DNA of 54,201 bases from the NCBI GenBank assembly GCA_030037705.1, contig JASHQE010000071.1:1-54201 (forward strand). Direction: 5' to 3'. Each line of letters starts with the position of its first letter. Positions within the stretch are counted from its first letter, which is position 1. Positions 5,319 through 44,976 of this stretch are shown here, piece after piece. The stretch comes from Acidobacteriaceae bacterium. Its GTDB lineage: Bacteria > Acidobacteriota > Terriglobia > Terriglobales > Acidobacteriaceae. Under the pieces are notes generated by a model, which saw only the letters and a list, made by a program, of their open reading frames with translations, was not told the DNA's origin and made no database searches. A program made the position numbers and the translations under genes.

Positions 5319-5446
5319 AACTGGTTGCATAAATGGTCTGGTTAGGTAAAGAAACTTCCCTCAGGGGCTAAAGCCCCAGTGTTCATGAGGCTTTTGCGGC
5401 ACGACTCAAGTCGTGCCCTGTTACGAAACCATTTATGCAACCAGTT
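5319..5446. mobile_element. Element D: type I two-hairpin core with 18-bp perfect inverted ends, flanked by CTAG
   Basis: CTAG at 5315-5318 and 5447-5450 flank AACTGGTTGCATAAATGG and its exact complement (5429-5446). The core holds two hairpins: GGGGCT-aa-AGCCCC near 5356-5369 and GGCACGACT-ca-AGTCGTGCC near 5398-5417. The same core with different outer arms recurs at 28595 and 44868. The right-hand CTAG is also the left end of element A2, so the two elements abut. It carries no gene and follows the S41-homologue gene. Confidence 0.7.
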
Positions 5447-5758
5447 CTAGGGCGTATCGACATATAGCCTGATAACCTAGAGCAGTTCCCGAATGAATAT
5501 TGACTTTTTGAAAGTCGTGTAGGGTGGCGTCCGCCGCGGCGGACGCCACTTGGCGGGCGCGCTTTCGGATTACACCAATTCGGGAACTGCTATATGGGCA
5601 AAATGAGCAAGTTTTCCATTGAATGCGTGGAGCACGAAGCGAACCGCAGATGTTTCGACTCTCCGCCGCGGCGGACCGCGGCGGACTTCGCTCAACATGA
5701 CAGTGCTTGATTTACTTTTCAGCAGCTTAGAGTTGGTCTATATGTCGATACGGCCTAG
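5447..5758. mobile_element. Element A2: second copy of A1, interrupted by element B
   Basis: The ends are CTAGGGCGTATCGACATATA and, on the complement, CTAGGCCGTATCGACATATA. Outside the insertion, only about seven substitutions separate it from A1 (2892-3088). After GATAACC it contains a 115-bp block (5478-5592) absent from A1. The type III core lies at 5641-5704. The right end passes directly into the region upstream of the penicillin-binding protein gene. Confidence 0.8.
5480..5592. mobile_element. Element B: TA-flanked type II hairpin element nested in A2
   Basis: Inverted ends AGCAGTTCCCGAAT (5481-5494) and its complement near 5577-5590 enclose the perfect palindrome GTGGCGTCCGCCG / CGGCGGACGCCAC (5525-5550). 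TA is present once in the empty site (A1, after GATAACC) and on both sides here (5478-5479 and 5593-5594), as expected for a 2-bp TA target duplication. The element is 113 bp with no coding capacity. A related element is at 45075-45186. Confidence 0.75.
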
Positions 5759-5877
5759 AGCCTGTTATTAACTTTCCCGTGGGTGGCTTTGCCCCATAGC
5801 AACCGGAAAACTGCTCTAACTCTCTCTTGCGGAATTGCTTGGCGAGAGCAGTTCGTGAGTGGCCGCGCAACAGGCTC
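5758..5877. repeat. Inverted-repeat unit F upstream of the PBP gene
   Basis: GAGCCTGTT (5758-5766) and AACAGGCTC (5869-5877) form 9-bp inverted ends. Inside, AACTGCTCT and AGAGCAGTT (about 5810-5853) form a second hairpin. There is no clear target duplication. An open frame begins inside this unit and continues into the PBP gene, which would wrongly extend the protein. Confidence 0.45.
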
Positions 5878-5976
5878 AATTCGGATAGCCCGCACACCTC
5901 GTCCCACTCTTGCCTAAGCGAGTACAACTTTAGTTTCAATCGCATACCGGCGCATCATGAAAATGCTAACCTTGAG

Positions 5977-8421
5977 GTGAAGCATCTTCTCCAAAACCAA
6001 CCGAGAGATGCCGAAGAGGCACACGTGGCTGCTACCCCCCAACGGCCTGTGGAACCCCGCGGCCCGATTTTGCGCGGCCCGAAGGCGCTCGAACCGGACA
6101 GGAGCCGCCGTCCCACCGCTCTGCGTGTACCGGCAAAACACAGTCACAAGCTGGCCCAACGGTCCGTACTGGCGGTGCTGCTTCTGCTTGCCGCCGTCAC
6201 CGGCTCTCTGGCCGGGCTTACGCTGGTTTATTCCTCCGACCTGCCGCAGATCAACGATCTCGAGAGCTATCACCCCTCGACCTCGACCGACCTCTACGAT
6301 CGAAAGGGCCGGTTGATCGGCTCCTTTGCTTTGCAGCGCCGGATCATCGTGGGCTACGACGGCTTTCCGCCCGTTCTGCGCGAGGCGGTGATTTCCATCG
6401 AAGATAAAAATTTCGAATCGCACTGGGGCATCAACGTCTTCCGCGTTGCCGGCGCGGTCTGGCACGACATCCGCAGCCATGGCCGGGCACAGGGCGCCTC
6501 CACGCTGACCATGCAGCTGGCGCGCAATCTCTTCCTCTCAGATGAACGCACCGCCATGCGCAAGGTTCAGGAGGCATACCTCGCCATCCAGATCGAACGC
6601 GCCTTCACGAAAGAGCAGATCTTCACGCTCTACGGCAACCAGATTTACCTGGGCAGCGGGATGTATGGGTTCGAAGCCGCCTCAGAGTTTTATTTCTCGA
6701 AGCACGCCAAGGATCTGAGTCTGACGGAAGCCGCGCTGCTGGCTGGGCTGCCGAAAGGCCCTGTCTCCTTTTCGCCGATTCTGAATCCGGAGCGGGCTTT
6801 GCGCCGGCGCAATCTGGTTTTGAGTGAGATGGAGTCCGACGGCGTGATTACGCACGCGCAGGCTGAACAAGCGCGCAATGCGCCGCTCGGTCTGCATATC
6901 ACGCAGCCGGAAGGCTCGGTGGCGCCATGGTTCCAGGAAGAAGTGCGCCGCGAGCTGGACAAGCGCTTTGGCAGCGAAGAGGTGCATGAAGCCGGCCTGC
7001 GCGTGGATACCACGCTTGACCTCGACCTGCAGGAAGCGGCGAACCGCGCCGTCGCCGATGGCCTTGCAGCCGATGAACGCCGGCGCGGCTGGAAGGGGCA
7101 TCTCGAAAATGTTCTGACGGACGGCGGTTCTCTCGATGCATATAAGCATCCGGATTGGGCGCTTGCCACCGGCCCTGGCGATTACGTCCACGCTCTGGTC
7201 ACGCGGGTGCTGCCGCTGGAAATTCATGCCCGCATCGGACCGCCAGGTCAAGAGGGTGACGAGATTCTGCTTCTGCCGCCCGACTGGCAGTGGACCGGCC
7301 AGCGTTTGGCCGGCCCGCTGGTCAAACCCGGCGACGTCATTTACGTGCATCTCGCAACCACGACTGATGGCGACGAGCGCCGCGCCACGCTTGAGCAGGA
7401 TTCCGGTACGCAAGGCTCGCTCATGGCTATCGACAACACCAGCGGCGACGTACTGGCCATGGTGGGCGGGCGCGATTACCAGCTTTCGGTCTTCAATCGG
7501 GCCACGCAGGCGCAGCGTCAGGTGGGTTCAAGCTTCAAGCCGTATGTCTACACCGCAGCCGTCGAGGACGGCGTGAGACCGACGGACATCATCGTCGACG
7601 CGCCGGTGAGCTTCGGCAGCTACCATCCGCACAATTACGAGAACAACTTCAAGGGCGCGATGACCGTGGCCAACGCCTTTGCCGAGTCGCGTAACATTCC
7701 CGCGCTCAAGCTGGCCGCCCGCGTGGGCATCCGCAAGGTCATCGACGTAGCGCACAAGTTCGGCATCACGTCCGACATTCCTGCCTATCTTCCCATCGCG
7801 CTGGGCGCGGTGGAGATTACGCTCGAAGAGCAGGTCGCTTCGTATTCCGTATTTCCCAACGACGGCGTGCGCGTTTCCCCGCGGCTGATCCGCAAAGTAT
7901 CGAACGCGGATGGCATCACGCTCTGGGAAGACACGCCCACGGTCACGCAAGTGATCGACCAGCAGACAGCGCGCACCATGATGACGATGCTCAAAGACGT
8001 CACCGACCACGGCACGGGCGCGGCCGCAGCGCAGTTGAACCATCCGCTCGGCGGCAAGACCGGCACAACCAGCGATTTTACCGACGCGTGGTTCCTCGGT
8101 TTCTCGCCTTCGGTGACCTGTGGCGTGTGGGTGGGCTATGACAGCCGTGAATCGCTGGGCAACAAGGAAACCGGCGCCGTGGCTGCGTTGCCCATCTGGA
8201 TCAACTTCATGAAAGCCGCCGTCGTGGGCAAGGACGACGAGCAGTTCCCCGGCGACGAGGACGCGCCGCCGATGGATCGCGCGGCTGCGCAGCCGGCGAC
8301 GCACTCCGCGCCGTATATGAGCCGCGCCCCGCATCCGGTCCCGCTCCCGGCCACTCCACAAGCCGTGGTGAAGCGTGCTTCGAACACAAGCCCCTATCCA
8401 AGGAAACCGATGGAACAGTAA
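5977..8421 (+). CDS. ponA: Class A penicillin-binding protein (PBP1A-like glycosyltransferase/transpeptidase)
   Basis: A bifunctional peptidoglycan synthase anchored in the inner membrane. I prefer the GTG at 5977, because the frame upstream (from 5827) lies in repeat DNA; this gives 814 residues. A basic Pro-rich N-terminus precedes one transmembrane helix (about 59-82). The GT51 glycosyltransferase domain shows SIEDKNF with catalytic Glu142, then GASTLTMQLARNL and the lipid II-binding region. The transpeptidase domain shows SSFK (Ser518, Lys521), SRN (Ser571) and KTGT (Lys694). All catalytic motifs are present. A disordered Pro/Ala tail follows about residue 755. It forms no obvious operon. 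Confidence 0.93.
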   Translation: MKHLLQNQPRDAEEAHVAATPQRPVEPRGPILRGPKALEPDRSRRPTALRVPAKHSHKLAQRSVLAVLLLLAAVTGSLAGLTLVYSSDLPQINDLESYHPSTSTDLYDRKGRLIGSFALQRRIIVGYDGFPPVLREAVISIEDKNFESHWGINVFRVAGAVWHDIRSHGRAQGASTLTMQLARNLFLSDERTAMRKVQEAYLAIQIERAFTKEQIFTLYGNQIYLGSGMYGFEAASEFYFSKHAKDLSLTEAALLAGLPKGPVSFSPILNPERALRRRNLVLSEMESDGVITHAQAEQARNAPLGLHITQPEGSVAPWFQEEVRRELDKRFGSEEVHEAGLRVDTTLDLDLQEAANRAVADGLAADERRRGWKGHLENVLTDGGSLDAYKHPDWALATGPGDYVHALVTRVLPLEIHARIGPPGQEGDEILLLPPDWQWTGQRLAGPLVKPGDVIYVHLATTTDGDERRATLEQDSGTQGSLMAIDNTSGDVLAMVGGRDYQLSVFNRATQAQRQVGSSFKPYVYTAAVEDGVRPTDIIVDAPVSFGSYHPHNYENNFKGAMTVANAFAESRNIPALKLAARVGIRKVIDVAHKFGITSDIPAYLPIALGAVEITLEEQVASYSVFPNDGVRVSPRLIRKVSNADGITLWEDTPTVTQVIDQQTARTMMTMLKDVTDHGTGAAAAQLNHPLGGKTGTTSDFTDAWFLGFSPSVTCGVWVGYDSRESLGNKETGAVAALPIWINFMKAAVVGKDDEQFPGDEDAPPMDRAAAQPATHSAPYMSRAPHPVPLPATPQAVVKRASNTSPYPRKPMEQ

Positions 8422-8565
8422 GCCCGTGCTGAAATTCTCGATCCGTGCCCGATCCGTGATCGCCCCGTGCCCCACCCTTGCGCTTTTTCCGGCGCAAGAG
8501 CGGGATTCGGGTGAACCAGTGAACAGGTTAGGATGGGGCACCTGATGCTGTAATCGTTCTTAATT

Positions 8566-8630
8566 TGTCATCCTGAGTGAAGGCCGTCCGCCGCGGCGGA
8601 CGGCCGGAGTCGAAGGATCTGCGGTTGCTT
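8566..8630 (+). repeat. Type III hairpin core, forward copy
   Basis: TGTCATCCTGAGTGAAGG, then the perfect 24-bp palindrome centred at 8593/8594 (containing TCCGCCGCGGCGGA at 8587-8600), then GAGTCGAAGGATCTGCGGTT. ATCCT and AGGAT can pair outside the central stem. It is the reverse orientation of the copies at 2972, 5641 and 8725. Confidence 0.75.
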
Positions 8631-8724
8631 CTAAACATCCATGCGATCCGCAGCACGCTTCCAATCGGTGGGCTCCACGTCGTACCAATCTCGACTCAGG
8701 TCATCCTACGCCGCCTTTACAAAA

Positions 8725-8796
8725 ACAACCGCAGATCCTTCGACTTCGTTTGCCGCAAAAACGCGGCAAACTGCGCTCAGGATGACAGTGTTTGGG
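8725..8796 (-). repeat. Type III hairpin core, reverse copy
   Basis: AACAACCGCAGATCCTTCGACT is followed by a central stem GTTTGCCGC / GCGGCAAAC (8749-8772) and CTCAGGATGACAGTG. The central stem sequence differs completely from the other copies yet remains self-complementary. With the copy at 8566 it forms an inverted pair about 95 bp apart. Confidence 0.75.
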
Positions 8797-8810
8797 GGGA
8801 TTTGTGCTTT

Positions 8811-9083
8811 CCCAGGTCTCCCGCCACGGCGGGCGAGACCTGGGGCACCCGGCACCCGGCCAGATTAGGTATCCATCACGTCCCTACGGGACGTGGGAAG
8901 AATCGTTGTCCTCGCGTCCCGGGGTTGCGTTCGCTGCGGCGAACTCCACCCCGGGCTATTTTCGTGTTCTCCCTCCGGGAGAATGCCTGGACCGGGTTGT
9001 TGTGTTCCGTCCAAGCGGAGCTTGGACGGGATCAATACGATCTACTGTGTGCATGTCCCCCACAGCCGTGACGGCTGCGGGGG
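8811..9083. repeat. Run of six successive hairpins
   Basis: Six strong inverted repeats follow one another: CCCAGGTCTC/GAGACCTGGG (8811-8844), CACGTCCC/GGGACGTG (8877-8895), CCCGGGG/CCCCGGG (8918-8955), TTCTCCC/GGGAGAA (8967-8983), CCGTCCAAG/CTTGGACGG (9007-9029) and CCCCCACAGCCG/CGGCTGCGGGGG (9056-9083). The last begins 4 bases after the porin stop codon on the minus strand and may end porin transcription, although no T-run follows. The rest of 8422-9087 holds no convincing gene. Confidence 0.6.
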
Positions 9084-9087
9084 AATA

Positions 9088-11058
9088 CTACCACTTCACA
9101 AGAATCGCGAAGATGATCTTCTGTTCGTCGTGGCGCATGTCCGGCCGCCAGAGGGTTAAAGGTCCCGCGCCGTAGCTCGCCACCGCCAGGGGTGAACCGG
9201 GCGCGGGATTGGCACAGACGGCGCTTGCGGCAGCGATGTTTGCCGCATATTCCTTGGTGTAACCGAGTCCGGGCATCGGTGTGTAGCCCGTGCCCGAGTC
9301 AAAGGATGCACTTCCGTTGGTGCAGGTAAAGTCGCCGGGGTTGCCGACAGGCGAATTCGTAGCGCCTCCCGGAGGCGTCGATCCGCCACGGCCGGCCCAG
9401 TACGGCACATCGGAGTGGCGATAGCCATATTCAATACGGTAGGTAATGAACTGGCGCGGCATGAAGTCGTAGGTGAAGGTGCCGTCCTCGCCGTGGTACG
9501 GCATGCCGGGATCCTCAGGAAAGTAGGCGCTGCCGGTGACCGCTGTTGCGCCATTGATGGGCGGGAGCAGCACCAGATAGCGGCCGGGGTTGTTCACGTA
9601 ACCGCCGCCTGCGGTGATGGCGTAGCGGTCCTTGCCAAACCACCAGCGGTTATAGGTCATCCATCCCAGGAAGCTCTGCTTGTAGTACGGAGTGGCGGGC
9701 GTGGAGCCGCTGGCGGGAATGAAGATCTTGTGACCTGCAGATCCCATACAGGCCACGCCATAGCCCTCTTCGCAACCCGCGTCCGCCGTGATGGAGAAAG
9801 CCATGCGATCGAGCGTGCTGTCAGGCTTTTCGTAATACTTGTACTCGACGCTGTTGTCGGTGTGGAAACGCGTGCGGCCTTCGATGCCGTAGTCATCTTC
9901 TCCCATGCCATAGTTGTTCGAGATGATGTTGACCTTGCCCGTAGGCGTGTACTTGATCTGGCCGCCAAGACCCGGCTTGCCGCCGAAGCGCGCATACGAT
10001 TGCCAGCCGTTGATGAACCACGGCTCGATCTTCAAATGCTGCGTGAGGAAGAACTGTCCGCGCACGCCATTGAAGAACCAGGGCGTGTTGGACGAGACGA
10101 ACGAAGGCTGGTAGGCCCAGTTATCGAAGTTGTAGTAACTGAAAAGACCGATATAGGACATGAAGATGCCGGCGTCGAGATTGATGCCGTGCATCTTATC
10201 CCAGTGATAACCACCGTAGGCCTCGGCGAGATAGCGGTAGGCATCGTCAAGATTCCACTGGCCGCGGGTGACGCTGGCGTCGTTGCGCGGCGTGGTCACG
10301 GAATACTCGCCGAACTGCGTCATCAGGCGGGCGTGCACGTGGTCAATCAGCAGATCGCCGCCGATACCGAGCTGCTCCAGTTGGACTTCCTGCGAGCGGA
10401 AGACCTCGCTCGATCCGCTGATCGTGTCGTCCTTGGGATGGTTGAAGTCCAGGTTGTAGTTTGCGTCCACGCGGATCTCAGGCGTGAAGTACTTGGTGCA
10501 TAGCGGGCAATCAATCGTGCGCGGGTTGCCGTTGAGCCAGCCCCAGTAATAATCGGCAAACGGCGTTACATGATCCACGGCCGGCGCCGCGGGTGCTGCC
10601 GGAGCGGCCGGGGTTGCTTCCTGGCTCGAAGTCGTGCTCGTCGCCGCTGTTGCCGCCGCAGGAGTGACCGCAGCTTTTAGAGCCGCAACGTCGTTTTCAT
10701 AGGCCTTGATGGCATCGGCTGAAGCGGCGTCTGCGTCGCCGCGCGCTTTCAGCGCTGCCTTCAGCTCCGCGATTTCAGCCTTCATCTCCATCATATTCTT
10801 CATTAATTCAGCATTCGTAATCTGGCTGGCCGCATCAGGTTGAGCGCCCGCCGCTGCAGCAGCCGAAGTATTCGTATTGGCTGCCGCGGAGGTCGAGCCG
10901 GCTGCGGGCGCTGCGCCGGATGGTGGTTCCAAGTGGGAGGTTAGCGTTAAAGTCCCGCTTCCAGTTGGCTGACTCTGCTGTGCGGTTACGGAAAGAGACA
11001 GTAGAGCGAAGCATGCGCCTGCCGCGGCAGGCGCGATTCTCCAGCAGGTTCTTTTCAT
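9088..11058 (-). CDS. BBP2-type outer-membrane beta-barrel porin with N-terminal coiled coil
   Basis: The 656-residue protein has a signal peptide (cleavage near VTAQQ, residue 27), an Ala/Thr-rich linker, a short coiled coil (about 82-130: NAELMKNMMEMKAEIAELKAAL), a Pro/Ala linker and a large barrel domain from about residue 165. The barrel is rich in alternating aromatic strands (FADYYWGWLNGNP, YRIEYGYRHSDVPYW) and ends IIFAILVKW, a typical outer-membrane C-terminal strand. This layout resembles the OmpL-like putative beta-barrel porin-2 family. The coiled coil probably trimerises or reaches the peptidoglycan (inference). The substrate is unknown. A Shine-Dalgarno-like GAGAGG precedes the ATG by 4 bases. 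Confidence 0.8.
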   Translation of the reverse strand: MKRTCWRIAPAAAGACFALLSLSVTAQQSQPTGSGTLTLTSHLEPPSGAAPAAGSTSAAANTNTSAAAAAGAQPDAASQITNAELMKNMMEMKAEIAELKAALKARGDADAASADAIKAYENDVAALKAAVTPAAATAATSTTSSQEATPAAPAAPAAPAVDHVTPFADYYWGWLNGNPRTIDCPLCTKYFTPEIRVDANYNLDFNHPKDDTISGSSEVFRSQEVQLEQLGIGGDLLIDHVHARLMTQFGEYSVTTPRNDASVTRGQWNLDDAYRYLAEAYGGYHWDKMHGINLDAGIFMSYIGLFSYYNFDNWAYQPSFVSSNTPWFFNGVRGQFFLTQHLKIEPWFINGWQSYARFGGKPGLGGQIKYTPTGKVNIISNNYGMGEDDYGIEGRTRFHTDNSVEYKYYEKPDSTLDRMAFSITADAGCEEGYGVACMGSAGHKIFIPASGSTPATPYYKQSFLGWMTYNRWWFGKDRYAITAGGGYVNNPGRYLVLLPPINGATAVTGSAYFPEDPGMPYHGEDGTFTYDFMPRQFITYRIEYGYRHSDVPYWAGRGGSTPPGGATNSPVGNPGDFTCTNGSASFDSGTGYTPMPGLGYTKEYAANIAAASAVCANPAPGSPLAVASYGAGPLTLWRPDMRHDEQKIIFAILVKW

Positions 11059-11470
11059 TTAGCCTCTCGCTTTCATATTCGAAGTTTTGTGGATCGGCGC
11101 CGTTTGGCGCATCAACTGTGTTTTGGGTACACCTCTGCCGTCTGCTTTTTCGCAGCTCTTTACGCGTCGATTGTTGACATGCCACGACCGGAAAATTTAC
11201 GCGAAGCGCTCTTGCAGGAAGAGTCAGTTCCTCTCACGTCCGGAACGGTGCGTTTTTGGGTGACACGAGTGCGTCCGCTCTGGCGTGAATCCGGTGTAAA
11301 TTCTTTTCAACCTAGGGTAGGGAGAATCAGGAAAGCATGAATATGGTCAAAATCTGCATAAAGATTTTGAATTTCAGCGTGAAGACCTTGCAGTTCCCTT
11401 TCAAAATTTTCATAACAGCGCCCCTTTCTCGATTTCTTTGCCCACACTGCCGGGAACCGATACACTTCTG
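11059..11470. other. Divergent intergenic region between porin and ruvB
   Basis: It must hold promoters for both genes. TTGACA occurs near 11174 on the plus strand but lacks a good -10 at 16-17 bases. A small hairpin CAAAATC/GATTTTG (11348-11369) lies in the ruvB leader. I see no gene or known riboswitch. Confidence 0.35.
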
Positions 11471-12514
11471 ATGAGCATGGTCATCGCCCGCGACAATACT
11501 CCCGAACGGCTGGTCAGCGCCGCGCGCGCCGATGAGGAACAGGGCTTTGAGCTCAAGTTGCGGCCGCGCTGGCTGCGCGAGTTCATCGGCCAATCGAAGG
11601 CCAAGGAGCAACTTGCCATAGCGCTCGAAGCCGCGAAGTCGCGCGGTGAAGCGCTCGATCATGTTCTGCTCTTCGGGCCACCGGGGCTGGGAAAGACTAC
11701 ATTGGCCACCATTATTGCCAACGAGCTCGATGTGGGCTTCCAACAAACCTCGGGCCCCGCACTGCAGATCCAGGGAGACCTGACCGCGATCCTCACCAAT
11801 CTGCGCGAGCGGCAGGTGCTGTTCCTTGACGAGATCCACCGTATGCAGCCGGTGCTTGAAGAAAAGCTCTATACGGCGCTCGAGGACTACAAACTCGATA
11901 TCATCATCGGGCAGGGCCCGGCGGCGCGTACGCATGTAATGGAGATTCGGCCCTTTACGTTTATCGGCGCCACCACGCGGCCGGGACTGCTCTCGTCTCC
12001 CCTGCGTTCCCGCTTCGGCATTCTATTGCGTCTCGAGTTCTACACCGAAGAGGAGTTGCGCGTGATCGTGGAACGCTCCGCTGAGGTGCTGCAGATTCCC
12101 ATCGACCCGGACGGAGCCGCCGAGATTGCGCTTCGCTCCCGGGGCACACCGCGCATCGCCAATCGGCTTCTGCGCCGGGTTCGCGATTACGCGCAGGTGC
12201 GCGGCACAGGCGTTATCGACCGCCCCACGGCCAACGCTGCGCTCACCCTGCTGGAAGTGGACGCGCATGGCTTCGACGAGATTGACCGCCGTTTGCTGCT
12301 GACCATCATCCAAAAATATGAGGGGGGGCCCGTCGGGCTTGGCACGCTGGCCGCCACCCTCGCCGAAGAAGAGGATGCGCTCGAGGAGGTCTACGAGCCA
12401 TTTCTGATTCAGATCGGATTTCTCGACCGCACGCCGCGCGGCCGCGTCGCGACTCGCCTAGCCTACGAGCACTTTGGCATCGCCGTTCCAGGAAGACAAC
12501 CCGGACTCTTTTGA
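11471..12514 (+). CDS. ruvB: Holliday junction branch migration ATPase RuvB
   Basis: RuvB is the hexameric AAA+ motor that, with RuvA, drives branch migration of Holliday junctions. From ATG 11471 the protein has 347 residues, the usual size; a TTG at 11438 would add 11. Seen: Walker [10 protein letters not shown], Walker B LFLDEIHR, sensor 1 GATTRPG, the arginine finger in LRSRFG, and the C-terminal winged helix ending in the [10 protein letters not shown] region. ruvA and ruvC are not adjacent, which is common outside the proteobacteria. Confidence 0.97.
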
Positions 12515-12538
12515 ATGCTCTCTGAAAACCGATGAGCG

Positions 12539-12572: not shown

Positions 12573-12583
12573 CAGGAGGGATC

Positions 12584-13141: not shown

Positions 13142-13146
13142 AGAGC

Positions 13147-28498: not shown

Positions 28499-28594
28499 CC
28501 GCGTTTGAGGATGAAGTTTGAGATGCGGTCACGGGGTTCCGGCGGAGCGCGGCCCGCCTTGAAGGCGAGCCGGTTTTTGCGGGCCGCTTTGGCA

Positions 28595-28714
28595 GGTAGT
28601 GGCTCAGTTTGAACGCACATTCTTCAGGGGCTAAAGCCCGCCGTTCATTTGCGTGATTTCGGCACGACTAAAGTCATGCCCCGTTACAAAGCAAATTGAA
28701 ACTGAGCCACTACT
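28595..28714. mobile_element. Element E: type I two-hairpin core with 8-bp target duplication
   Basis: CTTTGGCA occurs directly on both sides (28587-28594 and 28715-28722). The ends are GGTAGTGGCTCAGTTT and, on the complement, AGTAGTGGCTCAGTTT. The core has GGGCT-aa-AGCCC and GGCACGACT-aa-AGTCATGCC. No gene is inside. An 8-bp duplication suggests an ISL3-, IS66- or IS1595-like transposase acting in trans (inference). Confidence 0.75.
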
Positions 28715-28770
28715 CTTTGGCAGGGACATGAGTCGGCGGCATTTAGACTGGTAAGGTCCGCCTGAACGTG

Positions 28771-36653: not shown

Positions 36654-36654
36654 A

Positions 36655-36703: not shown

Positions 36704-36741
36704 CGCAAAAGCTACCCGGTCCATTGCGCGCAGAGGCAAGA

Positions 36742-38097: not shown

Positions 38098-38101
38098 GCG
38101 G

Positions 38102-39073
38102 TCAACCTAAATGCGCGTCGGCGTCAAGCGGGTTGCCGCGCAGAAACTCCGCTGCCGGCAGACGCTTCTTGCCTTCAAGCTGCACTTCGAGCAGTTCCAG
38201 CCACGTGTTTTCCGCGCAGGCGACAAAGAACCGGTGGTTCTCCACACAGATGCAGCCAGGCTGCGCAAGTTGCGCGTGCGCAGCATCAGGCTCGGCAACC
38301 ACGGCCATGCGATGCACAATCAGTTTCTTGCCGCCGAGCGTGGTAAATGCGCCGGGCCACGGCTGAAAGCCGCGCCAGCGATTGTAAATTTCGTGCGCCG
38401 TGCGGCCGGCGAAATCCATACAGCCATCTTCGCGATTGAGCAGCGGGGCGAATGTAGCAGATTCGTGATTCTGCGGCTGCGGCCGGATCGCTCCGCTGGC
38501 CAAGCCTGCCAGCGTTTCGACGATGAGCGGCGCGCCTGCGCGCGCAAGGATCTCGAAAAGTTCGATCGCCGTTTGATCCGGACCGATCTCATGCGTCTGC
38601 TGCAGCAGGATCGGGCCGGTATCGAGACCTTCTTCGAGCAGCATCGTCGTGTTGCCGGTGAAAGCGTCGCCCATCGCAATGGCCCATTGAATAGGCGCAG
38701 CGCCGCGATACTTGGGCAAGAGCGACGCGTGCAGATTGATGCAGCCGAGCCGTGGCAGCGCGAGCATCCACGGCGGAACGATGCGGCCGTAGGCGACCAC
38801 AATGATTCCATCGGGCGCTGCCGATTCAAGCTGCGCGCGAAACGCAGCGTTACTGCGAATCTTTTCAGGCTGCGTGACGGGAAGACTCGCGGCCAGCGCA
38901 GCCTGCTTCACCGGAGTCGGCTTGAGCAGTTGCTCGCGGCCAACAGGACGATCCGGCTGCGAAACGACCAACGCTATATCGTGGCCTGCAGCGAGCAGCG
39001 CTTCCAGCGTAGGGACGGCGAACTGCGGAGTCCCGCAGAAGACCAGCTTCAGGCGTCCTGCAGCAGCGGCCAT
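38102..39073 (-). CDS. fmt: Methionyl-tRNA formyltransferase
   Basis: Fmt formylates initiator Met-tRNA using 10-formyl-tetrahydrofolate. The 323-residue protein has the N-terminal formyltransferase domain with the FCGTPQFAVPTLEAL opening, the catalytic Asn/His region INLHASLLPKYRGAAPIQWAI, and Asp in DTGPIL, then a C-terminal OB-like domain. Def, which removes the formyl group, is 7 bp upstream and rsmB 4 bp downstream. Confidence 0.97.
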   Translation of the reverse strand: MAAAAGRLKLVFCGTPQFAVPTLEALLAAGHDIALVVSQPDRPVGREQLLKPTPVKQAALAASLPVTQPEKIRSNAAFRAQLESAAPDGIIVVAYGRIVPPWMLALPRLGCINLHASLLPKYRGAAPIQWAIAMGDAFTGNTTMLLEEGLDTGPILLQQTHEIGPDQTAIELFEILARAGAPLIVETLAGLASGAIRPQPQNHESATFAPLLNREDGCMDFAGRTAHEIYNRWRGFQPWPGAFTTLGGKKLIVHRMAVVAEPDAAHAQLAQPGCICVENHRFFVACAENTWLELLEVQLEGKKRLPAAEFLRGNPLDADAHLG

Positions 39074-39080
39074 CGGCGCC

Positions 39081-39590
39081 TTACCATTTCCCTTCGCTCT
39101 GCAGCTTGCGAATCTTGCGCAGGTTCAGGTTGCGCTTGAGCGGGCTCATGCGGAAGATGAATAAAATGCCGTTGAGGTGATCGATTTCATGCTGGAAGGC
39201 GCGAGAGAGCAGCTCTTCGCCATCCATTTCGAACCACTTGCCGTGCTCATCCTGGGCGCGGATGCGCACCTTGGCCGCGCGGGCCACTCTCTCACGAATG
39301 TCAGGAAAGCTCAGGCAGCCCTCTTCTTCATAGAGCTTGCCTTCGCTCGAAATGATCTCCGGATTGATGAGCACCAGTTTGTCTTTGGGTTCTTTGCCTA
39401 CGCTCAGGTCGATCACGGTAAGCCGCTTGGAGATGCCGACCTGTGGCGCCGCCAGGCCGATGCCCTGCGCGGAGTACATTGTCTCGAACATGTCGGCTAC
39501 CAGTTGGCGCAGTTCGTCGTCGAATTCGGTTACCGGCTCGCCGGGCTGCGAGAGCACCGGCTCGGGATATTTGACAATCTTTCGGACCAT
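39081..39590 (-). CDS. def: Peptide deformylase
   Basis: Removes the N-formyl group from nascent proteins. The 169-residue protein contains the three metal-site motifs intact: GIGLAAPQVG (motif 1), EEGCLSFP (motif 2, metal Cys) and QHEIDHLNG (motif 3, HExxH). Length is normal. It lies between aroC (8 bp upstream) and fmt (7 bp downstream). Confidence 0.97.
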   Translation of the reverse strand: MVRKIVKYPEPVLSQPGEPVTEFDDELRQLVADMFETMYSAQGIGLAAPQVGISKRLTVIDLSVGKEPKDKLVLINPEIISSEGKLYEEEGCLSFPDIRERVARAAKVRIRAQDEHGKWFEMDGEELLSRAFQHEIDHLNGILFIFRMSPLKRNLNLRKIRKLQSEGKW

Positions 39591-39598
39591 GCCGCCTG

Positions 39599-40777
39599 CT
39601 AGTAGCTCCGTATCTGTTCGAGGTAACTGTCGAAGTTCCGCTTCAATTCAAGAAGAGAGTCCCCGCCGAACTTCTGCTGCGCCACGTTGGCGATGGTCAG
39701 TGCCACCATAGCTTCGGCCGCTACGCCCGCCGCGGGAACCACGCAGATATCGCTGCGCTCATAGCTGGCGCTGGTGGGCTCACGCGTATCGAAGCGCACC
39801 GATTCGAGCGGCCGGCGCAGCGTGGAGATGGGCTTCAAATAGCCGCGCACCACAATATCCTCGCCATTCGAAACCCCACCTTCAATGCCGCCGGCGTTGT
39901 TGTGCGGTCGGGTAAAACGGGTAGGTTTGCCGTTGTCCTCCACTGCATAGTGGATGGGATCATGCACCTGCGAACCGAAAGACTCGGCAGCGGTGACGCC
40001 GCGGCCGATCTCGACAGCCTTCACCGCCTGCAGGCTCATTACCGACCAGGCCAGCAGCCCATCGAGCCGCTCGTCCCAGTTCGCATAGGTGCCCAGTCCC
40101 GCGGGGACGTTGTGAACCACCACCTCAAAGACGCCGTTTACCGTGTCGCCGGTGCGCGCCGCCTCTTCCACTTCTTCTTTCATGCGCGCTTCGGCTGCGG
40201 GATCGACGCAGGCGAGCATCACTTCGTCTTTGCCGGCGGTAGCAACAATCTCGTCCCACGCAGCCGCGCGTTCGAGCTCGACATGACCCACGCGAACGAC
40301 GTGGCTCAACACATCCATTCCCAATGCGCGCAGAAAGAGCTTGGCGAAGGCTCCGGCGGCCACACGTGAAGTCGACTCGCGGGCCGAAGCGCGTTCCAGC
40401 ACGTAACGGGCATCAGGAAAGTTGTACTTGAGCGCCCCGGCGAGATCGGCGTGACCGGGCCGAGGTGAAGCAACCGCCTGATGCTTGGCAGGATCGCCAG
40501 CCTCAACGGGCAGTTTTTCTTCCCAGTTCTTCCAGTCACGATTCACAATCTCGATTGCAATCGGCGAGCCAATGGTCTTGCCGTGCCGGACTCCGGAAAG
40601 AATGTGCGCCTTGTCGGTCTCGATCTTCATGCGGCCGCCGCGGCCATAACCCTGCTGGCGCCGCCACAGTTCACGGTTGATGAATTCAAGATCGACATGC
40701 ACGCCAGCGGGCAGCCCGGAGATCAGCGCAATCAAGGCCTCGCCGTGGGATTCGCCGGCGGTGGAAAAACGGATCAT
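39599..40777 (-). CDS. aroC: Chorismate synthase
   Basis: The last shikimate-pathway enzyme, FMN-dependent. The 392-residue protein starts MIRFSTAGESHGEALIALI, has GYGRGGRMKIE, the RPGHADLAG block, RASARESTSRVAAGA, and HNNAGGIEGGVSNGEDI near the C-terminus, all family signatures. It appears to head the operon with def, fmt and rsmB. Heptamer repeats lie just upstream. Confidence 0.97.
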   Translation of the reverse strand: MIRFSTAGESHGEALIALISGLPAGVHVDLEFINRELWRRQQGYGRGGRMKIETDKAHILSGVRHGKTIGSPIAIEIVNRDWKNWEEKLPVEAGDPAKHQAVASPRPGHADLAGALKYNFPDARYVLERASARESTSRVAAGAFAKLFLRALGMDVLSHVVRVGHVELERAAAWDEIVATAGKDEVMLACVDPAAEARMKEEVEEAARTGDTVNGVFEVVVHNVPAGLGTYANWDERLDGLLAWSVMSLQAVKAVEIGRGVTAAESFGSQVHDPIHYAVEDNGKPTRFTRPHNNAGGIEGGVSNGEDIVVRGYLKPISTLRRPLESVRFDTREPTSASYERSDICVVPAAGVAAEAMVALTIANVAQQKFGGDSLLELKRNFDSYLEQIRSY

Positions 40778-40802
40778 ATTGATTTCATTGTAATGGAGAG
40801 GC

Positions 40803-40840
40803 AGAGAACAGGGATCAGAGGTCAGAGATCAGGGGATCAG
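40803..40840 (-). repeat. CTGNNNN heptamer array, minus-strand orientation
   Basis: Read on the minus strand, units such as CTGATCC, CTGATCT, CTGACCT, CTGATCC and CTGTTCT follow with a period of about 7. It faces the array at 40887 across a 46-base gap. Confidence 0.6.
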
Positions 40841-40886
40841 CAGTTTGTGCCAATGGAGCGGTCGCACCTCGACCCGCCAGGCACTT

Positions 40887-40935
40887 CTGTTCCCTGTTCC
40901 CTGTTCCCTGTTCCCTGTTCCCTGTTCCCTGTTCC
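40887..40935 (+). repeat. Seven perfect CTGTTCC heptamers
   Basis: CTGTTCC is repeated seven times without change over 49 bases, immediately upstream of the EVE-domain gene. The array lies in the position expected for its ribosome site and leader, and no Shine-Dalgarno sequence is present after it. Repeat-number change could alter expression (inference). Confidence 0.9.
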
Positions 40936-40945
40936 CTCGAATATT

Positions 40946-41335
40946 ATGGCTTGCATGTCCTATTTTCTTTTCAAGAGCGAGCCCGATGTTTATTCCTTCG
41001 ACGATCTGCTGCGCGATGGCGAAACCGTATGGGACGGCGTAACCAACCCCACCGCCGTCAAGCATCTGCGCGAGATGAAGGCCGGCACGAAGTGGATCTT
41101 CTATCACACGGGTGACGAAAAAATAGCCGTCGGCACCGGGACCGTGGTCAGCGTGGATCCGAGCAATCCCAAGGTGCCCATCGTGCGCGTGAAGGCGGGC
41201 AAGCGCTTGAAGCAGCCAAAGACGCTCGCGGCGATTAAGGCAGAGAAGCTGTTTGCCGATTCACCTCTGGTGCTGATCGGACGGCTCTCAGTTGTACCGC
41301 TTACGGAAGAACAGTGGGGCTGGCTCGTGAGTTAA
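40946..41335 (+). CDS. EVE-domain protein
   Basis: The 129-residue single-domain EVE protein opens with SYFLFKSEPDVYSFDDLL and contains WDGVTNPTAVKHLREMKAGTKWIFYHTG, both typical of the EVE/thymocyte nuclear protein 1 family. EVE domains are PUA-related and bind modified nucleic-acid bases or RNA. An alternative ATG lies at 40955. The usual bacterial length is near 140-150, so it is slightly short at the C-terminus. It is preceded by the heptamer array and faces the YhaM-like gene. Confidence 0.88.
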   Translation: MACMSYFLFKSEPDVYSFDDLLRDGETVWDGVTNPTAVKHLREMKAGTKWIFYHTGDEKIAVGTGTVVSVDPSNPKVPIVRVKAGKRLKQPKTLAAIKAEKLFADSPLVLIGRLSVVPLTEEQWGWLVS

Positions 41336-41347
41336 GCGGCAACTTTG

Positions 41348-42436
41348 TCATGAGCCAGACGGAGCGGTAGAGTCGGCTGAGTCGATATTTGCTTCTTGCT
41401 GTTCCCTGATATCTGCCCCCTGATCCCTGATCTCTGTTCCCTGTTCCCTGCCTTCGCCCAGCCAACGCCTGGTGTTCAGCAACTGCCGGTTATCGAGCGA
41501 CCAGACTTTTCCTGTCAGCTCATCGTGGGCTTTGCCTTCACGCAAAGATTTTTCAAACTCATTCGTAACCGCCTGCATCTTGGCATCGAAGTCGTCGATG
41601 AAGTTGAGGGCCAGCGCCTCGGGAATCATGGGCAACTTGGGCGAGCCGAACTCGAGCTTGCCGTGATGCGAAAGAATCATGTGCAGAACGAGCGTGCGCA
41701 GTTTGCCGGGAAAATCGGGCAGCGTGGCGATCGTTTTTTCGACGAGATCAACGCCCATCTGGATATGTCCCAGCAGAACGCCTTCGAGGGTGTATTCAAA
41801 GCCCGCGGTCCAACTTAATTCGCGAATCTTGCCGATATCGTGCAGGATCACACCGGTGATGAGCAGGTCGCGGTCGAGGATCGGGTAGTGCGCGGCCACG
41901 CGCTCGGCCAGGCCGAGCAGGCTGACAACGTGTTCCAGCAAGCCACCAAGCCAGGCGTGATGCAGACCGCGCGCGGCGGGCGCTTCGCGATAAGCATCGG
42001 CAATCACCGGGTCGGTAAGAATGGCCATAAGCAAGCCCTTGAGGTCAGGATTCGCGAGGCTCTCCACACTGGCCAGAAGCTGGCTCCAGAGAACGTCCAC
42101 ATCGAAGGCCGTTGCGGGCAGAAGATCGGATTTATCGACTTCGAGCGGCAGCGCGAGGCGGAGCTGATCGATCTTGATCTGGCAGCGGTCGTCAAAACGC
42201 GCAGTACAGCCGCGCACCTTCACCGTATCGCCGCGGTCGAAGTTCTTCGCAATGCGGGGGTCGCCCGGCTCCCAGGCGCGCGCCTCGACCTGGCCCGTCT
42301 TGTCGCCGAGCATCAGGTTCAGGTACGGCTTGTTGGTCCGCGTGGTCCGCAGTTGCTTCGCAAGCACAAGGAAAAAACCGTCGAAGGGTTTTCCCTCTTC
42401 AAACGAGGCCAGATCGGCGATATAGATATCCTTCAT
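41348..42436 (-). CDS. YhaM-like 3'-5' exoribonuclease (OB + HD domains)
   Basis: I start at ATG 42436 (MKDIYIADLASF); the frame runs open for 201 codons upstream but overlaps the GNAT gene and lacks family features. The 362-residue protein has an N-terminal OB-fold (about 15-95: LRTTRTNKPYLNLMLGDKTGQVEARAW) and an HD phosphohydrolase domain with HHAWLGGLLEHV and the metal pair HDIGKI. This pairing is that of YhaM/CBF1 exoribonucleases. The last about 25 residues (REQGTEI RDQGADI REQQEAN) are encoded by a CTGNNNN heptamer array and repeat every seven residues. Confidence 0.88.
   Translation of the reverse strand: MKDIYIADLASFEEGKPFDGFFLVLAKQLRTTRTNKPYLNLMLGDKTGQVEARAWEPGDPRIAKNFDRGDTVKVRGCTARFDDRCQIKIDQLRLALPLEVDKSDLLPATAFDVDVLWSQLLASVESLANPDLKGLLMAILTDPVIADAYREAPAARGLHHAWLGGLLEHVVSLLGLAERVAAHYPILDRDLLITGVILHDIGKIRELSWTAGFEYTLEGVLLGHIQMGVDLVEKTIATLPDFPGKLRTLVLHMILSHHGKLEFGSPKLPMIPEALALNFIDDFDAKMQAVTNEFEKSLREGKAHDELTGKVWSLDNRQLLNTRRWLGEGREQGTEIRDQGADIREQQEANIDSADSTAPSGS
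41399..41452 (+). repeat. Imperfect CTGNNNN heptamer array inside the 3' end of the nuclease gene
   Basis: CTGTTCC, CTGATAT, CTGCCCC, CTGATCC, CTGATCT, CTGTTCC, CTGTTCC, CTGCC in register. Seven bases times three gives a 21-base period on the coding strand, so the protein gets a seven-residue repeat. Confidence 0.85.
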
Positions 42437-42532
42437 TCTGCCCGCAAGCATACAGCAATTGACGCGCGCCAGAAAGTTGGTTTCATACTCCCGGGCCAGT
42501 CCATGTGAAAAGATGCCTATGGGCAAACCACC

Positions 42533-43006
42533 ATGGATTCCGAACTTGAAAACAACAGATTTGTCATCCGGCCTATGACTTCCAAAGACGCCGCTGCGGT
42601 GAGCGGACTCACGAGCGAACTCGGCTATGAACGACCTGCCGCAGAGACCGCGGAGTGGATCAGGATGCTGCCGTCCCGCGCGGAAACCCAGGCTGCCTTC
42701 GTGGCATGTGTGGCCAATGAAGTAGCGGGCTGGATCGAGGTTTCCATCACACATCACTTGCAGGTGCCGCCATTCGCCTTGATCGGTGGATTGGTCGTGA
42801 AAGACGGCTTCCGCGGCATGAAAATTGGCCAGCGCCTCTGCCAACGCGCCGAAGCCTGGGCCTGGGAGCGCGGCATGGAGATGATGCGCGTGACCTCGCG
42901 TAGTACACGCGCGGATGCGCACCGGTTCTACCTGCGCGACGGATACAGCATAGTCAAAACATCGCTCGTGTTCAAAAAGAGCCGCCCGCAACAGCCCCAC
43001 AAATGA
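42533..43006 (+). CDS. GNAT-family N-acetyltransferase
   Basis: The 157-residue protein is a single GNAT domain: RPMTSKDAAAVSGL at the start, then the acetyl-CoA-binding motif A LVVKDGFRGMKIGQRLCQRAEAWAWERG (R/Q-x-x-G-x-G/A variant) and the closing RFYLRDGYSIVKTSLVFKK. The acceptor is unknown. It is divergent from the YhaM-like gene and convergent with the SurA-like gene. Confidence 0.88.
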   Translation: MDSELENNRFVIRPMTSKDAAAVSGLTSELGYERPAAETAEWIRMLPSRAETQAAFVACVANEVAGWIEVSITHHLQVPPFALIGGLVVKDGFRGMKIGQRLCQRAEAWAWERGMEMMRVTSRSTRADAHRFYLRDGYSIVKTSLVFKKSRPQQPHK

Positions 43007-43024
43007 GTTGGCCCACAAATGAAT

Positions 43025-43052
43025 CGGGCCTGAAACCAAAGTCTCAGGCCCG
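43025..43052. terminator. Bidirectional hairpin between GNAT and SurA-like genes
   Basis: CGGGCCTGA and TCAGGCCCG form a perfect 9-bp stem with a 10-base loop between the two stop codons of convergent genes. T-runs are weak on both sides. Confidence 0.55.
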
Positions 43053-43078
43053 GCTCGTCCTGGCGGTTAGCTGAAAAG

Positions 43079-44779
43079 CTACTGCTTCGGCGCATCCGTC
43101 GGCGCAGGTGCTCCAGGAACAGGAGCAATCGGCGTAGGCTGCTGCGGGGGCGCCTGGGTTGCGTCGTCGGAAGGAGTCTTTTTCTTGTCGGCCAGGCGCG
43201 TCTTCTCACCGGCCGTTTCGGCCTTCTTTTTCTTTTTGCCGGAGGTATCGCTGCCCAGACCCAATGGAGCCGATTGTGTCTGCTGATCGGCTACCTCGGC
43301 CGCATCAGGGGGCGCGGGTGCCGATGCGTCAGCCTGAGGCGCAGCCGACTTGCTCTTCTTGGGCGCCCTGGCGCGTTCGCTGAAGCGGGTCTTCTGGTCC
43401 GATCTGGTTGGCTCCAGAGGATTTGCCGGCTGATCGGCGTTGTTAGCCGTTTCCGGCAAGGCCCCCGCATTTTCGGTAGAGGTGTTGGCGGTTGCTGCAG
43501 GCAGAGTCTCGCGCGGCGCCTGGCCGAAACGAATCTTTTCCTTCTTACCCGGCTTTTCAGTTGCCTGCTCAGAGTTCTTATCGCTCTTTTTCGATGTGTC
43601 TTGCGAAGCTGCGGCCTGTTCCGGCGCAGGCGCCATCTCAGACGATTTCTGACGGAAGGTGTGCGTGCTTTCGCGGAAGCGGGTGCGCTCCACCTTGGCC
43701 TTCTTCTTGGGCGAAGGCGGCACGTAGGCGCTGAACGAGATGCTTGGATGTAGCTCGGCATACGTCGCGCCGGTATCGACGTAACCAGGCTTGATAAAGA
43801 TCGCGGCCTCGTCGCGCATCTTGTTCAAGTACGCGCGAATCGCCGGTTCCATGCGGCTTTCATAGAGAGCCTCTTCCACCTGCTCCTCGACATTTTTGTA
43901 TGGAGCGGGGCCGCCGGCGTTATGCTGCACCACCTTGAGGATGATGTAACCCTGGCGCGTAAGGATCGGGTCGGTGTACTGGCCTGTGCCGAGCGAAAAT
44001 GTTTTGTCCTCCAGCACCTTGGGCAACTGGCCTTGTTTGTACTGGCCCAGGTCGCCGCCCTCGCCGGCGGTCGGTCCCTCGCTGAAGCTGCGCGCCAACT
44101 GCGCAAAGTCACCGCCCGCGTGCAGACGGGCTTCAATGTCGTCGGCCTTGGTTTTGGCCGCGGCCTGCTTCGCCGCGTCGTCAGGGCTGGCCGCGACGAG
44201 AATCTCACTCAACCGCTCGCTCTCAGGCTGCGTAAACTCTGCCTTGTGCTCTTCGTAGTAGCGCATCGCCTCGCCGGGCGTGAACTGGATGTGCTCGCCG
44301 ACTTCCTGGCGCATCACTTCCTGGGTGATGATCTGGTTGCGGATATTGGCTTTGAAGTCCTCGAACGAGACGCCTTGCTCCTTGGCGGCCTTTTCCAGGT
44401 CCTCGATGGAGTCAAGGTTGTATTGCTTGCGAATCTCGTCCAGCCGCTTCACCAGTTCGGTCTCGCCCGTGATGCCGAGTTCCTTGCCTTTGGAAAGCCA
44501 GAGCTGCTGGTCGACCAGGCTGCGCAGCAGATCCTTGCGCGCGGCGGCCATCTGCTGCATGGAATCGCCGCGCTGGCGCGCCTCCTGGTCCATCTCGTTC
44601 ATCGCGCGGTCGTAGTCAGACTGGGTGATGATCTGGTCGTTGACGCGGGCGATGATGTCCTCGACCACCGCGCCGCCATATGGGCTGGAGGGCGCGCCGT
44701 TCTGGGTGTGCGCCGGAAGAGCGGCAGCGAGCAGCAGCGTGCCGAACGCAGTGGAAGCGAAAAAGAGTTTGTGATTCAT
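43079..44779 (-). CDS. SurA-like periplasmic chaperone/parvulin with long repetitive tail
   Basis: A 566-residue exported protein. Signal peptide (cleavage near LPAHTQ, residue 25); SurA_N-type chaperone domain (about 38-170: VVEDIIARVNDQIITQSDYDRAM); one PpiC/parvulin domain (about 185-285: GGDFAQLARSFSEGPTAGEGGDLGQY). SurA helps outer-membrane proteins fold. From about residue 345 the protein is disordered and carries four spaced basic motifs: VERTRF (363), KEKIRF (413), DQKTRF (461) and GEKTRL (524), each within a Lys/Ala/Pro-rich linker. Typical SurA proteins end soon after the last domain, so this tail of about 220 residues is an addition. Confidence 0.85.
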   Translation of the reverse strand: MNHKLFFASTAFGTLLLAAALPAHTQNGAPSSPYGGAVVEDIIARVNDQIITQSDYDRAMNEMDQEARQRGDSMQQMAAARKDLLRSLVDQQLWLSKGKELGITGETELVKRLDEIRKQYNLDSIEDLEKAAKEQGVSFEDFKANIRNQIITQEVMRQEVGEHIQFTPGEAMRYYEEHKAEFTQPESERLSEILVAASPDDAAKQAAAKTKADDIEARLHAGGDFAQLARSFSEGPTAGEGGDLGQYKQGQLPKVLEDKTFSLGTGQYTDPILTRQGYIILKVVQHNAGGPAPYKNVEEQVEEALYESRMEPAIRAYLNKMRDEAAIFIKPGYVDTGATYAELHPSISFSAYVPPSPKKKAKVERTRFRESTHTFRQKSSEMAPAPEQAAASQDTSKKSDKNSEQATEKPGKKEKIRFGQAPRETLPAATANTSTENAGALPETANNADQPANPLEPTRSDQKTRFSERARAPKKSKSAAPQADASAPAPPDAAEVADQQTQSAPLGLGSDTSGKKKKKAETAGEKTRLADKKKTPSDDATQAPPQQPTPIAPVPGAPAPTDAPKQ

Positions 44780-44867
44780 AAATTCAGCACGCGCCGGCGG
44801 CAGAGTCGGTCACCGCCTCATCCATAGACGCCATTGTAAATCCCAGGAGAGCAACTGCGCGATTTCC

Positions 44868-44976
44868 GGTAGTGGGTCAGTTTGCGTAAACCCATCCCTC
44901 AGGGGTTAAAACCCCATCGAATTCTGCGCCTTTTCGGCATGGCTGAAGCCATGCCCCTTCAAACTGACCCACTACC
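44868..44976. mobile_element. Element G: type I two-hairpin core with 8-bp target duplication
   Basis: CGATTTCC flanks it directly (44860-44867 and 44977-44984). The 17-bp ends GGTAGTGGGTCAGTTTG are perfect inverted repeats. The core stems GGGGTT-aa-AACCCC and GGCATGGCT-ga-AGCCATGCC differ from those of element D by paired changes. It has no coding capacity. Confidence 0.8.

Follow-up and report, generated by a model that had tools for sequence, protein, structure and literature searches.

A RAYT-associated hairpin-pair repeat between the arms of several MITE families in an Acidobacteriaceae genome

MITEs (miniature transposons) do not code for protein; they are short, end in inverted repeats, lie between target duplications and are mobilised in trans. 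Their origin, together with the question of why many of their interiors differ from the parent transposon, is an old problem. For genes that resemble REP-associated tyrosine transposases (RAYTs) and lie between inverted repeats, Di Nocera et al. 2013 (PMC3733652, in the parts of the text available) describe an acidobacterial TIRtron group comprising T. saanensis, K. versatilis, A. capsulatum and G. mallensis with 'double palindromic TIRs', as well as hundreds of TIRs in Pseudomonas in which degenerate GTAG repeats adjoin stem-loops of unrelated sequence. Solibacter usitatus is listed with about 600 copies of one REP-like kind, class 3 (Quentin et al. 2018, PMC6006769, available sections). Here, a window of 54,201 nucleotides (positions 1 to 54,201 of contig JASHQE010000071.1, assembly GCA_030037705.1) from an Acidobacteriaceae bacterium, a soil bacterium, was analysed together with the remainder of its draft genome and with related genomes.

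Three chimeric elements in the window

All three intergenic elements claimed in an earlier note on this DNA were present (Table 1), and each was a two-part chimera in which a core, a hairpin pair of approximately 73 nt, lies inside MITE arms. Copy 1 had been given as 5319-5446, a span that covers only the part of a real element between two CTAGs. The three had been taken as one family with varying complementary arms, which did not hold, as copy 1 has T2 arms, which show no relationship to the T1 arms of the other two copies and come from a different transposon family whose target duplication also differs. The 8-bp direct repeats around copies 2 and 3 were perfect, and copies 99% identical to copy 2 were found at other places (L002 and L003). 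From the proposed common stem plan copy 2 departed, having only GGGC/GCCC in hairpin 1 and one mismatch in hairpin 2 (GGCACGAC/GTCATGCC), while three paired stem changes were confirmed between copy 3 and copy 1, of which hairpin 1 has one (C-G to T-A) and hairpin 2 the other two.

Table 1. Positions of the three elements, their hairpins, core model matches and target duplications in the window
Feature	Position	Strand	Description
Copy 1	5315..5450	+	T2-armed, 136 bp, CTAG at either end; arms CTAGAACTGGTTGCATAAATGG / reverse complement
Copy 1 hairpin 1	5364..5377	+	GGGGC-TAAA-GCCCC
Copy 1 hairpin 2	5398..5417	+	GGCACGAC-TCAA-GTCGTGCC
Copy 1 core model match	5356-5427		
Copy 2	28595..28714	+	T1-armed, 120 bp, begins GGTAGTGGCTCAGTTTG
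Copy 2 left target duplication	28587..28594	.	8 bp, CTTTGGCA
Copy 2 right target duplication	28715..28722	.	8 bp, CTTTGGCA
Copy 2 hairpin 1	28628..28639	+	GGGC-TAAA-GCCC
Copy 2 hairpin 2	28661..28680	+	GGCACGAC-TAAA-GTCATGCC, 1 mismatch
Copy 2 core model match	28619-28690		
Copy 3	44868..44976	+	T1-armed, 109 bp, core type as in T4-armed elements
Copy 3 left target duplication	44860..44867	.	8 bp, CGATTTCC
Copy 3 right target duplication	44977..44984	.	8 bp, CGATTTCC
Copy 3 hairpin 1	44902..44915	+	GGGGT-TAAA-ACCCC
Copy 3 hairpin 2	44936..44955	+	GGCATGGC-TGAA-GCCATGCC
Copy 3 core model match	44894-44963		

The core and its RAYT partner

The prospect, raised in the earlier note against its own reading, that only these few copies exist was not borne out: a model search returned at least 150 core copies in the same genome, which also held 229 T1-end and 93 T2-end sites (15 and 1, respectively, for reversed-pattern controls), and each of the 36 genomes searched within the genus contained the core, at 1 to at least 82 copies per genome. 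Among the 150 scored own-genome cores, hairpin 2 was perfect (8 pairs) in 124 and imperfect in 26, and hairpin 1 had 5 of 5 pairs in 76, 4 in 70 and 3 in 4 cores. Double changes were observed at 8 of 13 pairs in 19 own-genome cores, a set chosen with a hairpin-like pattern, and at 9 of 13 pairs in 116 cores of other species aligned to the model, whose 80 loci were obtained through an exact hairpin match that biases percentages from this set; for both sets, 0 of 500 shuffles were as high. Further pair types in the 19 own-genome cores were not above shuffles (431 of 500 as high). The paired changes held to maintain folding are thus genuine, but they mostly trace four core lineages: since four types accounted for 121 of the 124 perfect hairpin-2 stems in the own genome, much of the difference between copies reflects exchange of whole cores and not many independent compensations. 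A GTRG foot at either hairpin was present in 2 of the 116 cores of other species (unplaceable in 17 rows for hairpin 1 and 10 for hairpin 2), in which the usual feet were CCTCA and TGTAWCAG or TTTGAAAG; as GT[AG]G directly 5' of a hairpin was nearly absent, the core was not classed as a canonical GTAG REP.

A RAYT gene with matching ends, which the earlier note had proposed to look for, was found in the own genome (L370), where it sits between inverted core copies, core(-) and core(+), neither of which has T1, T2 or T4 arms. L370 scored 98.8 against a cut-off of 80 for NCBIfam REP_Tyr_transpos; the NF047646 cut-off was exceeded by L370, L379 and L299, and that of Y1_Tnp by four of the transposases. 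Eight RAYTs of this type (L370 and seven others; six from a gene-family search and two from core-holding loci) each adjoin a core, with cores on both sides in seven of the eight, and formed a single clade in a 42-row tree (98/97; 0 of 500 shuffles). The underlying Y1 survey gave 108 matches, with 30 loci and 20 chosen stretches examined, the own-genome stretch C1 having been picked after a neighbouring core was noticed. As inverted cores flank one RAYT clade, we assign the core, as its repeat, to a RAYT system of the REPtron/TIRtron type, in which binding and cutting of the core by the RAYT are putative.

Arm families, nesting and mosaic cores

An arm was located within 85 bp of the core in 134 of the 150 scored own-genome cores, a share biased upward because the model includes armed copies and the genome holds at least 150 cores, while 15 had neither recognised nor other complementary arms. 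Flanking inverted repeats scoring at least 10 were found at just 15 of 111 fully flanked cores of other species. The T1 duplication was identical at 6 or more of 8 bases in 56 of 69 elements and perfect in 38, compared with 6 of 1,365 in a mismatched-pair control, and near-identical T1 copies were bounded by different perfect 8-bp duplications. Five longer elements in relatives (five end pairs analysed from 20 stretches fetched) were bounded by T1 ends with exact 8-bp duplications, three of them (L150, L152 and L153) containing an IS1-type DDE domain with DDE_Tnp_IS1 scores of 30-34.5 (Pfam cut-off 24.1). With the NCBIfam IS1 model the T1 transposases scored 62.5, 61.7 and 55.8, all below the cut-off of 100, and they are therefore labelled IS1-like and not assigned to the IS1 family; an IS1-like gene was not found in the own draft genome (85% complete). 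IS1595 was a candidate T1 partner, since a T1 element lies 120 bp upstream of the only good IS1595 match in the draft. That element is complete in itself, the other side of the gene is without a T1 end, paired T1 ends occurred at 0 of 29 loci in relatives (L091-L119, with a single end beside a fragment in L115), and an open inverted-repeat search around 19 genes gave no T1-like pair; the candidate was rejected.

Paired T2 arms were present in 36 of the 150 scored own-genome cores, 27 of them with CTAG at both ends, a pattern in which a TA duplication inside CTAG looks the same as a duplication of CTAG itself. T2 ends also bound one element in a relative (L510, which is 898 bp long and lies where a contig ends), in which DUF4096 and DDE_Tnp_1 lie in two frames. 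CTAG alone would be compatible with an IS630/TA assignment of T2, which was rejected on account of the IS5-type domains of L510. A third arm, T4, is flanked by TA and likewise carries the core; at 11 of 21 T4 loci (tallied by eye, and with some host cores that may be copies of one another) another core held the T4 element in the loop of its hairpin 1, and the position occupied was, repeatedly, the TA of that loop. T4 pairs in relatives (L511-L513, L517, L523, L525, L526 and L529) were 148-395 bp long and contained hairpins. Mixed combinations of core and arms were found in copy 3, L066 and L075; as copy 3 combines T1 arms with the core type of T4 elements, cores seem to have passed between arm families.

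Interpretation and relation to known systems

Each element is very probably a non-autonomous DDE transposon whose interior is the repeat of a RAYT system, and the earlier wording 'REP- or MITE-like' was apt on both counts, the inner hairpins being of RAYT/REP type and the outer arms MITE ends. The core is part of a REPtron/TIRtron, in which two inverted cores enclose the gene of a Y1/HUH tyrosine transposase. Judging from the enzyme family, this RAYT or its ancestors probably distributed the bare core within the genus, excising and inserting it as a single strand. In the own genome, the core is carried by at least three transposon families, T1 (IS1-like, 8-bp), T2 (IS5-type, CTAG) and T4 (TA), between whose ends it would have been captured. 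Matching transposases, if active today as we infer, would multiply the armed units in trans; cores would be swapped among arm families, probably through recombination between cores; and hairpin loops may serve as landing sites, T4 elements having been observed at the TA of the hairpin-1 loop. A fuller scenario, which we put forward tentatively and as less likely than not, is that the RAYT inserts the core between transposon ends and the transposase gene is then lost, so that MITE families are founded repeatedly. The core would then also spread as double-stranded DNA, in addition to its first route, and further core-bearing transposons would be drawn into its loops, giving rise to nested, core-swapping populations.

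Covariation above controls could also be expected if the elements acted as signals in folded RNA or DNA, for instance as terminator-like structures, mRNA stabilisers or protein-binding sites, with selection keeping the paired changes, and the three copies do lie between the longest ORFs, though a mechanical 188-aa TTG ORF overlaps copy 3. Against this, hairpin 2 was imperfect in 26 and hairpin 1 in 74 of the 150 cores, the copies are mobile and nested, and the whole window was without an Rfam match at gathering scores; as the main explanation such signals are improbable, although a signal function is possible as a side function of the elements. Still less probable is that these are ordinary MITEs whose inner hairpins are each family's own interior, unconnected with REPs or RAYTs. 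The 134 cores between MITE arms, and the movement of armed units as wholes with target duplications, fit this description, but it leaves aside the 15 unarmed cores, the low frequency of flanking inverted repeats in other species and the RAYT clade flanked by inverted cores, and it needs unrelated arm families to share one interior by chance. That arms and core together form a single extended RAYT element, the RAYT accepting any arms able to pair, would account for outer arms that are mutually complementary with the core between them in the scored matches; it is highly improbable, given that the duplications differ (8-bp for T1, CTAG for T2, TA for T4), that longer elements with DDE genes have the same T1 and T2 ends, and that the cores flanking L370 are without such arms.

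A RAYT repeat carried inside DDE transposons invites comparison with several described systems. As in the RAYT/TnpA-REP classes of Quentin et al. 2018 (PMC6006769, available sections), Y1 transposases occur near REP-like structures, some of them atypical there, but the canonical REPs of that work have a GT[AG]G foot that the core lacks. Tobes and Pareja 2006 (PMC1525189, available sections) describe REPs as hot spots at which transposons insert, and the hairpin loops here resemble them in this; the difference is that an inserting T4 element brings its own core, which results in cores nested within cores. TIRtrons/TIRYTs and REPtrons (PMC3733652) likewise have a RAYT-like gene between inverted repeats, which are self-complementary and occur dispersed as a family too, a likeness at the level of description; unlike the present case, repeats packed in DDE MITE arms are not mentioned in the available text. 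In the accessible portions of the literature on REPs, RAYTs, TIRtrons, MITEs and acidobacterial IS, no description was found of several DDE MITEs that carry a RAYT repeat. Compared with other MITEs, unrelated families here have one interior in common, the cognate transposase of which is of another mechanism. As one identifiable interior recurs between unrelated transposon ends, capture, exchange and nesting can be traced copy by copy, and the arrangement suggests that a RAYT repeat can be multiplied by DDE transposases in addition to its own RAYT, which would alter how its copy number and persistence are read. REPs and MITEs are known, as is the insertion of IS elements into REPs; one RAYT repeat packaged in several DDE MITEs is new.

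The window copies and the spread of their parts

All three intergenic elements were confirmed in the window, sited between the longest ORFs of their respective regions (copy 3 is overlapped by a mechanical 188-aa TTG ORF). The earlier note had treated them as one family with varying outer arms; the three elements are indeed present, but only copies 2 and 3 carry variants of one arm sequence (T1, GGTAGTGGSTCAGTTTG), the arms of copy 1 (T2, CTAGARCTGGTTGCATAAATGG) being unrelated to it. A further CTAG-flanked inverted-repeat element (T3, ends CTAGGGCGWATCGACATATAG) was seen twice, one copy directly abutting copy 1. Heptamer repeats (GGGACTAG) similar to a tandem array in the window adjoin several T2 elements.

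Coordinates of the elements, genes and repeats discussed
Feature	Location	Strand	Remarks
Copy 1	window 5315-5450		CTAG at both ends
Copy 2	window 28595-28714		inside perfect 8-bp direct repeat CTTTGGCA
Copy 3	window 44868-44976		inside perfect 8-bp direct repeat CGATTTCC
T3 element	window 2892-3088		
T3 element	window 5447-5766		abuts copy 1
Inverted repeat in T3	window 5478-5594		TAGAGCAGTTCCCGAAT
Tandem array	window 40802-40937		CCCTGTT-type repeats and inverted counterpart
L370 RAYT gene	L370 1310-1822		own genome
L370 flanking core	L370 1240-1313	minus	slight overlap with gene
L370 flanking core	L370 1788-1861	plus	slight overlap with gene
IS1595-type gene (L069/L090)	C115:7111-8133		341 aa
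Nested T4 loci	C5, C146:4962, C151, C152, C321, C100, C268, C304, C196, C297, C291		

The own draft genome measures 5.13 Mb in 332 contigs and is 85% complete. T1 ends were found in it at 229 sites with at most 2 mismatches (15 for the reversed-pattern control), and T2 ends at 93 with at most 3 (1 for the control). The end of a third arm family, T4, occurred at 30 sites there and had matches in 14 of 60 genomes compared. The inner hairpin pair, or core, was searched with a covariance model (R1; 73 positions, 13 pairs), which gave at least 150 matches in the own genome (150 of 988 candidates scored). Under the stricter filters of the 60-genome search, covering the best matches (at most 82) per genome, a core was matched in 40 genomes: 36/36 of the genus (own genome included), 1/14 of the sister family (G028, three weak matches) and 3/10 others of the class. 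Among the matches listed in a pattern scan of public genomes, 80 loci were found, all labelled acidobacteria or lower acidobacterial groups.

The core and its RAYT

A 170-aa Y1 transposase of the own genome (L370), scoring above the NCBIfam cut-off for REP-associated tyrosine transposases (RAYTs), lies between two inverted cores. Eight RAYTs of this type were recovered by tblastn of fetched loci (L370, L299, L286, L359, L377, L378, L379 and L383), and all eight are adjoined by a core, seven of them on both sides in inverted orientation; L299 and L286 came from loci fetched for holding a core and thus give no independent support for the link, the other six coming from a gene-family search. The eight form one clade (98/97) in a 42-row Y1 tree, on which core adjacency requires a single change (0 of 500 shuffles). 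The 33 scanned rows outside the clade (the 34th, L155, was outside the scan) had no core within 100 bp that scored over 30 bits; a T1-armed core lies some 900 bp from one of them (L372), and two sister rows (L385, L389) have weak matches nearby (17-22 bits). These associations mark the core as a RAYT system's repeat. The canonical foot GTRG was present in just 2 of 116 cores of other species.

Double changes were observed at 8 of 13 pairs in 19 own cores and at 9 of 13 in the 116 cores of other species, in both cases more than in any of the 500 shuffles or any slid version; further pair types in the 19 own cores did not exceed shuffles (431/500 as high). The hairpin-2 stem is perfect in 124 of 150 own copies (121 belonging to four types) and imperfect in 26. 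Paired change of the stems, as previously proposed, stands, but hairpin 2 of copy 2 is among the imperfect ones. Together, the covariation and the imperfect copies show that the ability to fold has been maintained over long periods, as would be required of a RAYT substrate, and that recent copies are decaying. As an alternative to selection, template switching within a hairpin could restore pairing. Differences between the window copies mainly reflect the core lineage carried.

Arms, transposases and changing partners

Searching the 60 genomes for T1 ends gave long end pairs, of which five were analysed, each flanked by an exact 8-bp duplication. Three (L150, L152, L153) enclose a transposase with an IS1 DDE domain and other ORFs, and no gene with this domain was found between the ends of L151 and L154. 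As these transposases score below the cut-off of the NCBIfam IS1 model, the elements are named IS1-like. The three measure 2.6-3.6 kb, their extra ORFs including one Bro-N domain and one DUF4258. An IS1-like gene was looked for and not found in the 85% complete own draft. Among T1 elements with both flanks in the own genome, at least 6 of 8 duplication bases match in 56/69 (perfect in 38), against 6 of 1365 mismatched flank pairs. Three T1 elements (L001-L003) that are 99-100% identical lie between different perfect 8-bp duplications, so armed units have moved as wholes. The domains DUF4096 and DDE_Tnp_1 occur, in two frames, in an 898-bp element (L510) that is bounded by the T2 end and lies at the end of a G023 contig. 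Of the own T2 elements, 27/36 have CTAG at both ends. The T4 arm (TA, then GGCAGTGTCTGAYGAATC) is a candidate MITE arm.

The sole good IS1595-type match in the draft (L069/L090) has no recognisable T1 ends; its diverged relatives (L091-L119) are up to 65% identical, and the stretch just past the gene is similar in L090 and L117, forming part of a small convergent ORF in the former.

At least one arm (T1, T2, T4 or T7) lay within 85 bp of 134 of the 150 scored own cores, a share biased upward because R1 was built from own, mostly armed, copies. The other 16 include the right flank of L370 and one core whose complementary arms are of another kind (CTAGCAGGCTGCGGAAAAA). Paired arms, overlap with the core end allowed, numbered 70 (T1), 36 (T2) and 9 (T4). 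In other species, flanking inverted repeats scoring at least 10 (T1, T2 and others) were found at 15 of 111 cores with full flanks (5 of 116 left out for short flanks), versus 21 of 550 mismatched pairs. Cores are thus mostly bare in the other-species sample and mostly armed among scored own matches. T7-type ends (AGCTTGCTGAAAA) are located in an arm or the loop of hairpin 2. Those of L449 precede an apparent transposase ORF start interrupted by the end of contig C54, and those of L185 lie on either side of a core.

Particular cores are not tied to particular arms. Copy 3 has T1 arms around a core of the type carried by T4 elements, a T2 element (L066) has a T1-like hairpin-2 side, and in L075 the left arm and the core after it are of T4 type and the right arm is T1. 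In G021, a core inside T4 ends with different flanking sequence (L525) suggests a separate capture.

Nesting and the proposed origin

Eleven of 21 own T4 loci (tallied by eye; one T4 end only paired up by script in four of the eleven) are lodged in the hairpin-1 loop of a second core, in almost every case at the TA of that loop; the host cores have T1, T2 or other flanks. TA accounts for 2.5% of dinucleotides in fetched own loci, so that of insertions made into TA at random, well under 1% would be expected to fall in a few hundred core loops. The eleven do not count as eleven independent events, since duplication among the T1 hosts may have produced some of them. A second small REP-like palindrome (GATCACCCC...GGGGACCCCGAT) occupies the hairpin-2 loop of L015 and L049, one a T1 and one a T2 element. 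Its layout in these differently armed hosts is ACCCC-ACAAGC-loop-GCTTGT-GGGGACCCC, and a similar palindrome occurs in G014 (L512, L523). In L011, L019, L028, L072 and L074 the right side of hairpin 2 is tandemly repeated (AAGCCCGTACCCTTC units), making some T1 elements longer; slippage or template switching might be the source.

In the best reading, several DDE transposons would have captured an old RAYT repeat, which became their interior. Armed units would then be multiplied in trans by the transposases of these elements, presumably the enzymes acting today, and cores probably reshuffled through recombination and nesting.

The component parts, a RAYT repeat and DDE MITE arms, are already of known kinds; as far as the literature searched reaches, it is a new variation that a single RAYT repeat is packed into several DDE MITEs and that cores are exchanged between them. 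Closest in kind to the core and its RAYT is the 'TIRtron' of acidobacteria, which has 'double palindromic TIRs' (PMC3733652), a likeness by description, not by sequence.
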